This document shows, piece after piece, positions 3,718-43,793 of a stretch of DNA of 64,000 bases. The stretch is from Paramagnetospirillum kuznetsovii (GTDB lineage Bacteria; Pseudomonadota; Alphaproteobacteria; Rhodospirillales; Magnetospirillaceae): contig NZ_PGTO01000001.1 in assembly GCF_003284725.1 (NCBI RefSeq), positions 124,001-188,000 of the forward strand, read 5' to 3'. Both the position numbers and the translations under genes were made by a program. Every line of letters starts with the position of its first letter. Within the stretch, counting starts at the first letter, position 1. Under the pieces are notes generated by a model that was not told the origin of the DNA, ran no database searches, and saw only the letters and a list, made by a program, of their open reading frames with translations.

Positions 3718-5421
3718 ATGTTCGCCAATCTCCGCATTTCCACCCGTCTGTTGGGGCTGACGGTCTTGACCGTCGTCCTTACGGTGGTCGTCGCCTCGCT
3801 CGGCATCAACGGCATGGGCGTCATGGAAGCGCGCATGAAGTCCATTTACGAGGATCGGGTGATTTGTCTGGGACAACTGGCAAATATCCAGAACGCGTTC
3901 CAGCGCATCCGCACCCGACTGATGTGGGCCGTCGACGCACCGAGCGATGCCCAGCGGCAAGCTCACCTGGGCAAGATCGCCGAATACGACAGCCTCATCA
4001 ACAAGGAATGGAAGGATTATACCGCCACCAACCTGGTGCCCGAGGAAAAGATCCTGGCCGACCGTTTCAGCGCCGGTCTTGCCGCCACTCGTGCCGATCG
4101 GGCGATGGCCATGGCCGCGATCCAGGGCGGCGATCTGGCCGGAGCCAAGGCCATGACGTCTCCCGACCACAAGATTGCGAAACGATTCGTCGCCGCCACT
4201 GACATCCTGTCCTCCCTGGAGCAGCTTCAGATCCGGGTCGGCAAGATGGACTTCAACGCGGCCGAGGAGACCTATGCCGCGACCCGGACCTTCTCCGTCG
4301 CCGTATCGGTGGTCGGCCTGGTCGGCGCCCTGGTCATGACCCTGCTGATCATCCGCTCCATCACGGTGCCGGTGGCGGCGTCCATCGCCGTGATGGAACG
4401 CCTCGCCAAGGACGACACCTCGGTGGAGGTAGGCGGCCAGGACCGCAAGGACGAGGTGGGCGACATCGCCCGTTCCGTCCAGGTGTTCAAGCAGAATGCC
4501 CTGGACAAGAAGCGCTTGGAAGCCGAGGCGGCCGCGGCCAAGCACCGCGCCGAGGAGCAGAATCGGGCCAATATGAACCGCATGGCCGGCGAGTTTGAAA
4601 CCAGCGTGGGCCAGGTGGTCGATAGCGTCGCCAGCGCGTCGGGCGACATGGAGCAGACGGCACAGACCATGTCGGCCCTGGCCGGTCAGGTGGCGGCCCA
4701 GGCCACCGCCGTGGCCGCCGCTTCCGATCAGGCCGCCGCCAATGTGCAGACGGTGGCCGCCGCCGCCGAGGAACTGTCAAGCTCGGTGGGCGAAATCGGC
4801 CGTCAGGTGAGCGAATCCGCCCAGGTCGCCCGCAGCGCCGTGGAGGAGACCGCCCATACCGATGCCATCGTGCGCGGTCTGGCCGAGGCGGCCGGCCGTA
4901 TCGGCCAGGTCATCAGTCTGATCAACGACATCGCCAGCCAAACCAATCTTCTGGCGCTGAACGCCACCATCGAGGCGGCGCGGGCGGGCGAGGCGGGCAA
5001 GGCGGGCAAGGCGGGCGAGGCGGGCGAGGCGGGCGAGGTCAAGAATCTGGCCAATCAGACGGCGCGGGCCACCGACGAGATCGCCCAGCAGATCAATTCG
5101 GTTCAGACCGAGACCGGTCGGGCGGTGGAAGCCATCCGCAACGTCAGCGCCACCATCGGCCGCATCGACGAGATTTCCTCGGCCATCGCCTCGGCGGTGG
5201 AGGAGCAATCGGCCGCCACCCAGGAAATCGCCCGCAACGTGGAAGAGGCCGCACGCGGCACCCAGGAGGTCTCGTCCAATATTTCCGGCGTGACCAACGC
5301 CGCCGGGGAGACTGGGCAAGCCTCGGCCACCGTGCTGGACGCCGCCCGCGCGCTGTCGGCGCAATCGGGAACCCTGCGCCGCACCGTGGGTGATTTCGTC
5401 GCCAAGGTGCGCGCCGCCTGA
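3718..5421 (+). CDS. Methyl-accepting chemotaxis protein, 4-helix-bundle sensor, altered hairpin tip
   Basis: 567-residue inner-membrane chemoreceptor. It has TM1 at about 12-34, a periplasmic four-helix-bundle-type sensor (about 35-190), TM2 at about 191-213, HAMP (about 213-265) and the cytoplasmic signalling domain. The start chosen is ATG at 3718 (MFANLRISTRLLGL), behind GAGG; the frame is open further upstream but has no receptor-like sequence there. The conserved hairpin begins normally ([25 protein letters not shown]). The GFAVVA that should follow is replaced by an AGK/AGE tripeptide repeat (codons 423-440) before [16 protein letters not shown] resumes. The other two receptors in the window keep GKGFAVVA. 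The reading frame is intact, so a full-length protein is made, but coupling to CheA/CheW may be changed or lost. The ligand is unknown. Confidence 0.93.
   Translation: MFANLRISTRLLGLTVLTVVLTVVVASLGINGMGVMEARMKSIYEDRVICLGQLANIQNAFQRIRTRLMWAVDAPSDAQRQAHLGKIAEYDSLINKEWKDYTATNLVPEEKILADRFSAGLAATRADRAMAMAAIQGGDLAGAKAMTSPDHKIAKRFVAATDILSSLEQLQIRVGKMDFNAAEETYAATRTFSVAVSVVGLVGALVMTLLIIRSITVPVAASIAVMERLAKDDTSVEVGGQDRKDEVGDIARSVQVFKQNALDKKRLEAEAAAAKHRAEEQNRANMNRMAGEFETSVGQVVDSVASASGDMEQTAQTMSALAGQVAAQATAVAAASDQAAANVQTVAAAAEELSSSVGEIGRQVSESAQVARSAVEETAHTDAIVRGLAEAAGRIGQVISLINDIASQTNLLALNATIEAARAGEAGKAGKAGEAGEAGEVKNLANQTARATDEIAQQINSVQTETGRAVEAIRNVSATIGRIDEISSAIASAVEEQSAATQEIARNVEEAARGTQEVSSNISGVTNAAGETGQASATVLDAARALSAQSGTLRRTVGDFVAKVRAA
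4984..5037 (+). repeat. Six tandem 9-bp repeats inside a chemoreceptor gene
   Basis: Six in-phase copies of gcgggcgag or gcgggcaag (pattern E, K, K, E, E, E at the third codon) encode Ala-Gly-Glu/Lys repeats. They sit exactly where the chemoreceptor family has the tip motif GFAVVA. A 9-bp unit lets the number of copies change by slippage without a frameshift. Confidence 0.95.
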
Positions 5422-22763: not shown

Positions 22764-24173
22764 CTAGCCCACCTTGCTGATATAGTCCTCGACCTGCTTG
22801 GACAGCGCGTCCACCACCGCGCTCAGTTTTCGGGCGCTCCAGATCACCCGGACGGTGCCGCCGCAGGCCTCGGCCGAGGATTTGGACAGATGGGCGACAT
22901 TTTCCGACACTTCGCCCGCCTTGGTGGCCACATCGTCGATATGGCTGGAGATTTCGCGGGTCACCGCTTCCTGCTCCTGGACCGCCCCGGCGATGGCGGC
23001 GGAAATGCTGTCGATGCGGCGGATGGTTTCCACCACCCCTTTGATGCCGTTCGCCGCCGATCGCGCCGCGTCCTGCACCGCCGCGACCTGGCGGGTGATA
23101 TCGTCGGTGGCGCGCGCGGTCTGGTTGGCGAGGTTTTTCACCTCGCCCGCCACCACGGCGAAACCCTTGCCCGCCTCACCGGCCCGCGCCGCCTCGATGG
23201 TGGCGTTCAGCGCCAAGAGATTGGTCTGTGACGCGATATCGCTGATCAACTGGACCACCTCGCCGATCTGACTGACCAAATCGGCCAGACCGTTCATGCG
23301 TTCCACCGTCTCGCCGATATCGCCCACCGCCGATTGCGCCACCTGGGCCGACATGCCGACCTGCTGGGCGATTTCATTGATAGCGCTGGCCAGTTGGCGG
23401 CTGGCGTCGGACACCGCGCCCGCCCGCTCGGTGGTGATCTCGGCCGCCTCGCCCACGTCCAGCGAACGGCCGCCGGCATTTTCCGACCGGTTGGCCATGG
23501 TGCTGGCGGTCAGACCGATGCTCTTGGTCGCCACCGCCACGTCGGACACCAAGGAATGGACCGACTGCTCGAAGCGCCGGGTTTCCTGATCGCGGGCGTC
23601 CATGTCGGCCAGCACCTTGTTGATGCCCTCGGCATAGCCGAGATAGTCGCCGCGCAGGCCCTGCAGCGGAATATGGCGGAAATACTGCTTTTGGCCCGCC
23701 ATCTTCATGGCGGCACCGGCATCCTTGGCGAATTCCTCGGTCAGATCGAGAACACGGTTGAAGCCGATCATCATGCGGCCCAGCTCATCCTTGCGGCCGA
23801 TCAGCAGAACGCGGGCGTTGAAATCGCCTTGGGCGGCCTGGGAGGCCACCTTTTCGCCGCGCTCGATGAGATCGATGATCTCCAACCGCTTGCGATGGGA
23901 GCCGATGGTCAAGACGAACAGGGCGCCGCCCGACAGGACCGCCAGGGCCACCATGATCCAGCCGAAGCTGCGATGGCTTTGCGTCGCGCCCTCCAGCGCC
24001 TGGCGCCAGGAATCGCCGCCCTTGGCCGATTCCGCCAGGGCGTCGGCGATGGCGCCGTCCATGACCAGGCCATAGAAGATGGAGGCATAGGCCACCGCGC
24101 CGGTGACCAGCAGGGCGACCATGGTCATGGTGGTGGCGCTGCCGATGGAGCGGCGGAGCGAGGATGAGGACAT
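22764..24173 (-). CDS. Methyl-accepting chemotaxis protein (partner of the PAS protein)
   Basis: 469 residues. Two transmembrane helices (about 17-37 and 70-93) enclose a very short periplasmic loop of about 30 residues, so it cannot hold a usual ligand domain. A HAMP-like segment and a signalling domain follow, with the intact tip [39 protein letters not shown]. The PAS gene ends 11 bp upstream on the same strand. Short-loop receptors with a separately encoded Aer-type PAS protein form a split energy or oxygen sensor; this is inferred from gene order and domain content. The N-terminal Ser-rich start at 24173 is the first plausible ATG. Confidence 0.92.
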
Positions 24174-24184
24174 GGAGAGCGCTC

Positions 24185-24715
24185 CTACCGACTAAGCGTC
24201 ATGATGAGGCGGTCATAGCTGTCGAAGCCCAGATCGCCGATGGTCTTGACCAGCGCGGCGAAGGATTGCTCGACCCCCAGCTTGCGGTCACCCGCCTTTT
24301 CCTCGATACCCAGCAAGGTCTGATACAGCGGGGCGATGGTGGCTATGGCCTCGTCCTTGGGCACCCGGCGGTTGGAATGATAGCCGACAATCTTGCCGGT
24401 GTGGTCGGTGCAGGGGGTGACATGGGCAAAGACCCAATAATGATCGCCGTTCCGGGCGCGATTGATCACATAGGCGAAGACCTCGTGGCCATCGGCGATC
24501 CTGTCCCACAGGAATTTGAAGACGCAGCGCGGCATGGCGGGATGACGCAAGATAGAATGTGGCGCGCCCAACAACTCTTTTTCCGTGTATCCGCTGATAT
24601 CGATGAAGACCTCGTTGGCATAGGTGATCTTGCCGGTGAGATCCGTCTTGGAGACGATGACGTCATCCCACTGAAAAGTCCTAGCCACATTGGTCAGTGA
24701 TCGGTCGATCGCCAT
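24185..24715 (-). CDS. Aer-type PAS sensor protein
   Basis: 176-residue soluble protein with one PAS domain (about 18-125): [44 protein letters not shown], then [18 protein letters not shown]. This matches the Aer/energy-taxis PAS group, whose members bind FAD, and is clearly similar to the N-terminal PAS of the receptor at 40617-43577. The last 45 residues are helical and could contact the receptor HAMP. Upstream gene of a pair with the chemoreceptor at 22764-24173. Start ATG 24713-24715. Confidence 0.87.
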
Positions 24716-33969: not shown

Positions 33970-34223
33970 TGCACCCCCACCCCCGGCCCCTCCCCACAAG
34001 GGGGAGGGGGGGAGCGAGATGACCCCAACCCCCCTCCCCTTTGATGGGGAGGGGGGCCTTATCTCTTGCTTTCCTCCCCTTGATGGGGAAGGGGCACCTT
34101 AGTTTTGCTCCCCTCCCCTTGATGGGGAAGGGGCACCTTCGTTTTGCTCCTCTCCCCTTGATGGGGAGGGGGCACCTTCGTTTTGCTCCCCTCCCCTTGA
34201 TGGGGAGGGGTCGGGGGTGGGGT
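33970..34223. repeat. 39-bp tandem hairpin array (VNTR) between leuD and DUF559
   Basis: The core gatgggg recurs at 34043, 34082, 34121, 34160 and 34199, exactly 39 bp apart. Each unit carries a cccctccccttgatggggag-type hairpin plus a (c)accttcgttttgctc spacer with small differences between copies. A further ggcccctccccacaaggggg hairpin (about 33985-34012) precedes it, and gtcgggggtggggtg ends it. No coding sense; 285 bp between genes. Confidence 0.95.
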
Positions 34224-40616: not shown

Positions 40617-43577
40617 TCACAGTTTGATGGCGTAGCGCAGCGCGCCCCAGTGGCGTTCGCCGATCATGATGGGGCAGTCGATTTCCTTGAGCAGCACGAA
40701 AGCACCGCCGCCCATGTTGCGGGCATAGGTCTGGGCCAGATAGGGCTGGAGATTGCGCGACGCCAGGATACCGGTGCGGTCGTCGAAGATCCTGCGGTTG
40801 CGGCTGTTGGCCATGTTCCACACCGGATCGCCCGGCCGCTGCGGATGCGCGCACTTTTTGTTATGGGTGGCGATATAGCCGTTGCGGTCCGAGGCACAGC
40901 ACAGCACCACGGCGGGGTCGCGGGCCAGTTCGGCTTCCAGGATATCGGGCAGGATCTGGTCGGTCAGCAAGGTGTGCTTGGACATCACCTGCAAGGGATC
41001 GGATTCGGGTATGGGGGTATAGTCGCTGTCGAACATGTCGGCCAGGGAGATACGGCCGGCATTGATGGCCTGTTCCATGGCGTTCGCGATCTTGGCGGCG
41101 GCTTGCTGGGCGGCGGCGATATAGGGCAGGTCGCGCGCCTTGCCGGATTCGATGGTGTCGGCCAGGGCCTGCTTCTGCTCCTTGCTAGTCTTGACGAACT
41201 GGCATTGGATTCCCAGCGGACTGCCCAAGATGGCCTTGGATGGCAAGGGTTCCATGCCGGGAAAGGTGATGGTGCCCAAGGCGCCTTCCATCTTGGGCGC
41301 GTTTCCCACCACCAGCAGGGCGCCCATGACGGAAAGGTCGCCGGTATGGCCGCTGAAGGCTTCGCCGTTGAACGTCGCGGTGAATTCCACCGAGACCGGG
41401 ATGCGTTCCACCGTCCGGCGATTGCCGCCGTAGGAGGTGCGCAGAATGACGTTGAGGCGGCGTTGCAGGGCGCCGATATCGTGGTTGACCAGGGTGGACA
41501 GTTCGCTGACCTTGCGGGCGGTGACGCCGGTCTGCTCGGCGCCGCTCAGCACGGCCGCGGCATTCACCGCCACGTCGCGGGTATGGTCGGCGGCCTGGAC
41601 GGCGCTGGCCATGATCTCGGCGGTGGCGGCCCGCTGCTGGTCGGCGGATTCGGCGATCTGGCCCGCGATGGCGTCGATGTCGCGGATGGTTTCCGCCACC
41701 GCCTCGACGGTGGAGACCGCCTCCCTCGTGGTGCGTTCGATCTCTTGAGCTTGGGCATTGACGCGGCCGATGGCGTCCTCGGTCTGACCGGCCAGTCCCT
41801 TGACCTCGCTCGCGACCACGGCGAAGCCCTTGCCGGATTCACCGGCACGGGCGGCCTCGATGGTGGCGTTGAGCGCCAGCATGCGGGTCTGGCCGGCGAT
41901 GGCCTGGATCAGGGCCACCACGTCGCCGATGCGAGCGGTTGCCTCGGTCAGGGTGCCGACGCTGGCGCTGGCGGCGTCCACCTTGCGCCGCGCCGCCTCG
42001 CTGTAGTCCGAGCTGCTTTGAATGCGCGCCGTGATCTCGCGCGACGAGGCCTCCAGTTCCTCGGTGGCGCCGGCCACGGTCTGGACATTGCCGCTGGTGA
42101 TCTCGATGGCGCCGGTCATGGCCTGCGCCATCTTGCGCGATTCCTCGGCGGTCTGGAGCAGCTTGCTGGCCCCTTCCTTGAGCCGGTCCGCCTGGGTGGA
42201 GATCTCGGCGACGGTGGTTTCCACCTCGCCCTCCAGCAAGACGGTCAGGTTCAGCATTTCCGTCTTCAGATGGGCCTCGGCCTTGCGGGAGTTTTCCTGG
42301 CGCTCCAGCGCGGCATAGCCCAACTTGGCCTTCATGGCGCGCAATTGGGCATTGGATCGCTGGAACTCGATCACCGGCTCCAGGGGAATTTCGTAAGTGA
42401 AATCGCCGCCCGCGATGGCGTTGAAATGCAGTTCTTGACGGGCGATGGGCTGTCGGAGATAGCGGATCAGAAAGGCCGCGAGGGCCACCGACAGGGCAAT
42501 GGCCGCCAGCAAGATCGCCAATCCAAGGCCGGAATGGTGGGTGTAGTCCTTCTTGGCCTCTTCATATTTTTCGCTCGCCACCCGCAATTGCAGGATCAGC
42601 AAGTCCTTTTCCACCTCGTGGACCTGATCGAACAGCATGTGCAAGGTGTTGGCGCTGTGGCGCCGCAATCCTTCCAGATCCTTGGCTTCGGCGAGGGCGA
42701 TGGCCACGTCCAGGCCGTTGACCACGTAGTTCTTTCGCTTGATCTCGAAATCCTCGGCCAGTTCCTTTTCGTCGTCGGCCAACGGGTTGCGGCGATAGGC
42801 GGACCAGACGGTGGCGATGTGGTCTCGGTTGGCGTGGATGCGGAGCGCGCGCTTTTGGACTCCCGCCGCGTTGCCGATGGCGACCTCGGTTTGCAGCAGC
42901 TCGGCATTGAGAAGATTCTCCCGCATGCGGTCGAGGATGTCGGCCAATTGCCCGGCCGGGACCGTGCGATCCTCGTAGACGGTCCGCAGCGCCTCGTTGG
43001 AATCGCCCATGCCGTCCAGCACGATCCATGTGGCGGCGCCCATCAAACCCATCAGAACGCATACGATGGCCATCAGGCGGCCTGCGATGCTGCTGGACCA
43101 GCGTGCCAAGCGGGCGGCCAGGGTGGTGCCGAGCACCAGGCCTTCCTCCACCTTGATGTTGCGGGCGGTGCCGTTGCGGATCTTTTCGTAGAGGCTTTCC
43201 GCCGCAGCCACCTGGGCACGGGTGGGGGCGGAGCGGATGGAGATGAAGCCGGTGATCTCGCCGTCGGTGATCTCCGGGGTGGCGTTGGCGCGCACCCAGT
43301 AATAATCACCGTTCTTGGCGCGGTTCTTGACGATGCCTTCCCACGGCTTGCCCGCCTTGATGGTTCGCCACAGATCGGCGAAGGCGGCGGCGGGCATGTG
43401 CGGGTGGCGGACCAGATTATGGGGCGCGCCGATCAGCTCTTCCTCGGTAAAGCCGCTGATATCGACGAAGGCTTGGTTCACGAAGGTGATGCATCCGGCC
43501 AAATCCGTCTTGGAGACCAGGATGGTGCCTTCCGGGAGTTCGATCTCCTGGTCGGTGTTTGGTTCATTGACCCGCAT
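40617..43577 (-). CDS. Chemoreceptor with N-terminal PAS, 4-helix sensor, PilZ and a C-terminal sensory domain
   Basis: 986 residues, nearly twice a usual chemoreceptor. In order: Aer-like PAS (about 15-115); TM1 (about 168-188); periplasmic helical sensor (about 190-348); TM2 (about 349-373); signalling domain with intact tip [30 protein letters not shown] near 570; PilZ domain (about 717-815) with the c-di-GMP motif RRTVER (from 719) and DLSVMG; then a conserved C-terminal domain (about 855-986) with CCASDRNGYIATHNKKCAHPQ and NRRIFDDRTGILASRN. The PilZ motif suggests direct c-di-GMP control of taxis. The C-terminal domain is found at the end of some other alphaproteobacterial receptors and looks Cache-like, but I cannot name its ligand. 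Confidence 0.9.
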   Translation of the reverse strand: MRVNEPNTDQEIELPEGTILVSKTDLAGCITFVNQAFVDISGFTEEELIGAPHNLVRHPHMPAAAFADLWRTIKAGKPWEGIVKNRAKNGDYYWVRANATPEITDGEITGFISIRSAPTRAQVAAAESLYEKIRNGTARNIKVEEGLVLGTTLAARLARWSSSIAGRLMAIVCVLMGLMGAATWIVLDGMGDSNEALRTVYEDRTVPAGQLADILDRMRENLLNAELLQTEVAIGNAAGVQKRALRIHANRDHIATVWSAYRRNPLADDEKELAEDFEIKRKNYVVNGLDVAIALAEAKDLEGLRRHSANTLHMLFDQVHEVEKDLLILQLRVASEKYEEAKKDYTHHSGLGLAILLAAIALSVALAAFLIRYLRQPIARQELHFNAIAGGDFTYEIPLEPVIEFQRSNAQLRAMKAKLGYAALERQENSRKAEAHLKTEMLNLTVLLEGEVETTVAEISTQADRLKEGASKLLQTAEESRKMAQAMTGAIEITSGNVQTVAGATEELEASSREITARIQSSSDYSEAARRKVDAASASVGTLTEATARIGDVVALIQAIAGQTRMLALNATIEAARAGESGKGFAVVASEVKGLAGQTEDAIGRVNAQAQEIERTTREAVSTVEAVAETIRDIDAIAGQIAESADQQRAATAEIMASAVQAADHTRDVAVNAAAVLSGAEQTGVTARKVSELSTLVNHDIGALQRRLNVILRTSYGGNRRTVERIPVSVEFTATFNGEAFSGHTGDLSVMGALLVVGNAPKMEGALGTITFPGMEPLPSKAILGSPLGIQCQFVKTSKEQKQALADTIESGKARDLPYIAAAQQAAAKIANAMEQAINAGRISLADMFDSDYTPIPESDPLQVMSKHTLLTDQILPDILEAELARDPAVVLCCASDRNGYIATHNKKCAHPQRPGDPVWNMANSRNRRIFDDRTGILASRNLQPYLAQTYARNMGGGAFVLLKEIDCPIMIGERHWGALRYAIKL

Positions 43578-43793
43578 GGGACCCTCGCTCCATTTGAACC
43601 GCCTTCTAATACATTAGCCGTATGCAAGATGCCAGGGTTTGCCGTGAAAAAAGGCAATTGCCCGCTTTATGAGCCGCACGGCAGTGGCTGAAGTCCGGCA
43701 CCGCGCCGGGTGCCGAACAGGTACACCTCTTGCATCAATGTCCGCACCTGGGAAGGCAACCGACCGCGAAGGCGGCAAATTAGGAACACCGAG

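Follow-up and report, generated by a model that had tools for sequence, protein, structure and literature searches.

Few stretches of bacterial signalling proteins are as strongly conserved as the hairpin tip of chemoreceptors. It holds the contacts for the receptor trimer, CheA and CheW (PMC4692393, PMC5706961), and in Tsr the stacking phenylalanine of the tip is F396 (PMC8144572), substitution of which by tyrosine alone gives a mutant defective in cooperativity (PMC13019169). Mutant receptors have also been described that, in mixed trimers, jam the other receptors or override them (PMC4692393). The conserved tip is typical of methyl-accepting chemotaxis proteins (MCPs), and natural departures from it exist.

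Here we describe a receptor with an altered tip, encoded in a stretch of 64,000 nucleotides from Paramagnetospirillum kuznetsovii (the window; Table 1). The altered receptor has the same domain order as E. coli Tsr and other 4HB-HAMP MCPs (PF00015), and both the N-helix of the tip and the C-helix beyond it are unchanged. It differs from Tsr-type MCPs in having nine Gly/Ala-rich residues for GFAVV, which we take to be Tsr G395-V399 (including F396 and V398), so that the turn is four residues longer. Pfam searches with the product matched the MCP signalling domain (9.6e-24, 84.6 bits, against a gathering score of 34.6) and the 4HB_MCP_1 sensor domain (1.3e-24, 87.2 bits). The HAMP match (1.2e-4, 22.8 bits) falls slightly under the cut-off of 25, and the HAMP segment aligns across orthologues, giving the sensor and HAMP architecture of the family. 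At the hairpin tip the N-side is kept and GFAVV is replaced; this loss leaves the product within the family.

Table 1. Receptor genes of the window and the parts of the altered tip, with the basis of each assignment.
Feature	Position	Strand	Basis
Methyl-accepting chemotaxis protein gene, 567 aa (altered receptor)	3718..5421	+	Open frame; Pfam domains 4HB sensor, HAMP, MCP signalling
MCP signalling domain, residues 366-526	4813..5295	+	Pfam PF00015 match
Six in-frame 9-bp units AGE AGK AGK AGE AGE AGE, replacing the usual tip	4984..5037	+	Direct reading, TRF, codon alignment with orthologues
Units 1-2 (AGE AGK), corresponding to Tsr A389-R394; N-side of the hairpin turn, ancestral	4984..5001	+	Codons as in orthologue G003 save one silent difference; identical in sister L050
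Units 3-5 (AGK AGE AGE), 27 bp for the 15 bp of GFAVV, Tsr G395-V399	5002..5028	+	Codon alignment, seven relatives
Unit 6 (AGE), corresponding to Tsr A400-E402; Ala-Gly-Glu kept from the ancestor, then unchanged sequence	5029..5037	+	Codon alignment
Second receptor, intact tip; control for structure prediction	22764..24191	-	Open frame
Third receptor, intact tip	40617..43613	-	Open frame

The DNA of the tract reads GCGGGCGAG GCGGGCAAG GCGGGCAAG GCGGGCGAG GCGGGCGAG GCGGGCGAG, that is, in-frame copies of the unit GCGGGC(G/A)AG, and Tandem Repeats Finder (TRF) reported a 9-bp unit in 7.6 copies (score 106, 4971-5038). The six Ala-Gly-Glu/Lys units described by the initial annotation were thus borne out by direct reading as well as by TRF. 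Codon alignment with seven relatives likewise confirmed the proposed local, in-frame replacement with normal flanks and a net gain of four residues, GFAVV (five residues) having given way to AGKAGEAGE (nine residues) with a net addition of 12 bp. The loss of GFAVVA that had been read at the tip needs correction in one respect: the replacement stands, but only five residues are gone, not six, because the alanine that ends GFAVVA survives as the Ala of unit 6, a unit that the ancestral tip already possessed.

GKGFAVVA is kept in the codon alignment in all seven full-length relatives, two of which have AGD or AGV for the first AGE, and some of which have AN or AS for the AG of the last unit. An EF-G-like gene lies upstream in five of the seven, and two of these five also share the downstream adenylate-cyclase-like gene and TrpS, indicating that they are positional orthologues. 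Orthologues therefore do not share the repeat, and a change common to the orthologues or the genus is ruled out by the seven normal tips. Both other receptors of the window read GKGFAVVA, as had been noted. The genome holds 43 MCP signalling-domain matches (41 over the family cut-off), and all other readable tips are GF(A/T)VVA bar one divergent RRFSVVA, two matches having no tip readable by the pattern used. A tip pattern with Ala-Gly for Gly-Phe gave no match in 54 other genomes of the family. Across 385 genomes of the class its only other match (genome G125, locus L208) was rejected as a second case, since that locus is not a receptor. The form I-EAARAGExGxAG was absent from an exact scan covering about 85,000 species, with Val forms and the window's own genome outside its scope, and a literature search on in-frame tandem repeats in chemoreceptors returned nothing relevant. 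The altered receptor is an unusual natural mutant and no new system; its replaced tip is probably a real and rare lesion, confined to one site in a receptor of known type.

A broader scan of the collection for tips whose codon at the F396 position does not begin with T (loci L078-L195; 118 stretches, 119 matches listed) worked as a positive control. Among the 119 matches listed, 65 are simple changes of F to L, V, I or M with the tip otherwise kept, 46 either drop out of the receptor frame directly behind the tip or stop at gaps, N or contig edges, 4 have an insertion followed by an unaltered GFAVV and 4 are other in-frame changes, under a sorting rule that is crude, the substitution-only L115 being placed in the last class and L099 losing normal sequence further on. 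GFAV is deleted in frame at the hairpin turn in Aeromonas salmonicida (L136), F is deleted in frame at the tip in a Pseudomonas MAG (L180), and there is an in-frame deletion at the turn in a Selenomonas MAG (L171); GFAVVA is kept beside a short tandem duplication, AGDAG, in a Verrucomicrobium MAG (L173) and beside five inserted residues in Salinibacter (L157). All of these share with the altered receptor an indel that keeps the frame at this turn, with readable flanks, but only in the altered receptor does an expanded repeat stand in for GFAVV. Their occurrence in unrelated bacteria suggests that the codons around the turn are a mild hotspot for small indels. Synoicihabitans (L114) has an independent in-frame indel at the receptor hairpin turn. 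Leu stands at the F396 position, as a naturally occurring F396L, across many species in a receptor group of the Acetobacteraceae (Roseomonas and relatives; L080, L084, L086, L089 and many others).

Three near-copies of the 9-mer are already present in the tip of close relatives. Two sister receptors in the present genome carry GCGGGCGAGG, a 10-bp direct repeat, on both sides of GFAVV, and the orthologue G003 shares this repeat; the tip codons of sister receptor L050 exactly match the expected ancestor. Mispairing across the GCGGGCGAGG copies could remove GFAVV, and the tandem units left by this deletion, resting on the pre-existing 9-bp near-repeat, could then expand. Judged from these sequences, slippage or recombination may thus have given the lesion by a simple route. 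We consider it likely that a recent in-frame event of this kind destroyed the C-terminal side of the tip in one of about 40 receptors, probably weakening or silencing its signalling.

Outside the tip the gene looks normal. Its 567 codons are open, GC3 is 0.848, which is normal, and the relative-rate test on the signalling part gave 10 versus 11 changes (p=1.0), with no acceleration outside the tip; relative-rate tests were not significant. Decay of the whole receptor as a pseudogene was rejected on relative rates and GC3. Since the gene outside the tract has an open frame, a normal composition and a rate no faster than that of its orthologues, the change is probably recent, a term that dates it only loosely because the nearest orthologue is as divergent as 70% identity over the protein. 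The lack of any speed-up outside the tip indicates either that the lesion is recent or that the receptor is still of some use, and a receptor that still works would equally show no decay elsewhere in its gene. Of the three explanations in the initial annotation, an inactivated receptor under repeat drift fits best, in the form of an impaired receptor with a recent lesion made by slippage; decay beyond the tip, for want of acceleration, is unsupported.

AlphaFold2, run on 16 sequences, provides weak evidence for a local lesion. In the model of the altered receptor the hairpin is kept and a loop is opened at the tip, with a pLDDT of 72-78 over the block against 94-96 in the control, which is helical and confident throughout. 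The fit to the E. coli core-unit tip was 2.1 Å for the altered receptor and 1.0 Å for the control. On its N-helix side the tip retains the equivalents of E385, R388 and N381, which leaves room for partial coupling. The altered receptor would still be made, inserted and able to form the four-helix bundle. With F396, V398 and V399 (Tsr numbering) absent, the four extra Gly-rich residues would break the register of the turn, and the lost contacts together with the broken register would probably weaken or abolish CheA/CheW coupling and trimer signalling. As F396Y alone is already defective, replacement of F396-V399 with the addition of four residues should do more. Redundancy of the other receptors would allow the lesion to persist, and with about 40 sisters neutral loss is the simplest reading. 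By analogy with the mutant receptors described above, a dominant effect on neighbouring receptors is possible. With F396 and V398 lost through expansion of a repeat and the rest intact, this natural receptor offers a ready-made test of how much of the tip trimers, kinase control and the binding of CheW require, and of whether defective receptors jam those around them.

The same tract could be an assembly or consensus artefact, in which tip DNA common to about 40 receptors was mis-resolved by the assembler. The genome is a draft of 69 contigs, and the 46 listed matches that break after the tip suggest that breaks in assemblies are frequent at this shared sequence. However, the frame is exactly kept through the tract, and the site lies about 129 kb into a 546-kb contig without N. 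Pattern searches for k-mer uniqueness placed the junction 15-mer GCGGGCAAGGCGGGC, within the whole genome, only in this tract, and gave GCGGGCGAGGCGGGCGAG only one other place (C22:103380), outside the located receptor domains. A join of two sister tips holds only their k-mers, so the uniqueness of GCGGGCAAGGCGGGC means that the tip is no chimera of sister receptors; with the junction k-mers absent from sister tips, a paralogue misjoin cannot supply the sequence at k of at least 15. The assembly error that the initial annotation had entertained is therefore unlikely. The tract was also considered as a copy of another repeat or of a paralogue, and this was rejected, as its four 27-base matches all fall inside the tract itself and no other place in the genome holds the junction 15-mer.

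Two further readings give the tract a function. The annotation's frame-preserving contingency locus would have unit number varying between cells and receptor output tuned in three-residue steps. Phase-variable loci made of coding simple sequence repeats are likewise tandem coding units that could slip, and the near-perfect, in-frame 9-bp units of the tip could be added or removed by slippage without frameshift. In contrast to those loci, the unit here is a multiple of three, which keeps the frame and cannot give the on/off switching of classical phase variation, and the tract is known from a single species, with none in orthologues or sister receptors. Moreover, GFAVV is not restorable by a change in unit number, so that every length is already tip-less, and the GAG/AAG differences between units should lower slippage. 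TRF reported no array directly upstream of the gene. We regard a contingency locus as unsupported and quite improbable. Alternatively, the Ala-Gly-Glu/Lys tract might be an adaptive, functional tip that has changed its partner specificity or signals at constant output, in keeping with the normal evolution of the rest of the receptor, the hairpin still predicted by AlphaFold2 and the retained N-helix contact residues. However, no relative shares the tract, which thus bears no sign of selection, its Gly-rich period of three mismatches the heptad packing of the bundle, and the F396 and V398 contacts are absent; a functional new tip appears highly improbable. Least probable of all is a length-variable, frame-preserving tuner of the tip, with unit numbers differing between cells and receptors that co-assemble and jam or bias others while themselves unresponsive.

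The tract fits the G-quadruplex pattern G3N1-7 on the + strand; as the window holds ten such motifs, this was rejected as a distinctive feature. Within 464 kb of the contig, the tip array is one of only four that reach four or more copies with a period that is a multiple of three. The strongest tandem array of the window is a 39-bp repeat in 4.6 copies at 34031-34210 (CCCCTCCCCTTGATGGGGAGGGG...), and the same contig carries a perfect 15-bp repeat, GCTTTCGTGCCCCTG, in 4.7 copies (L225:3285-3355).
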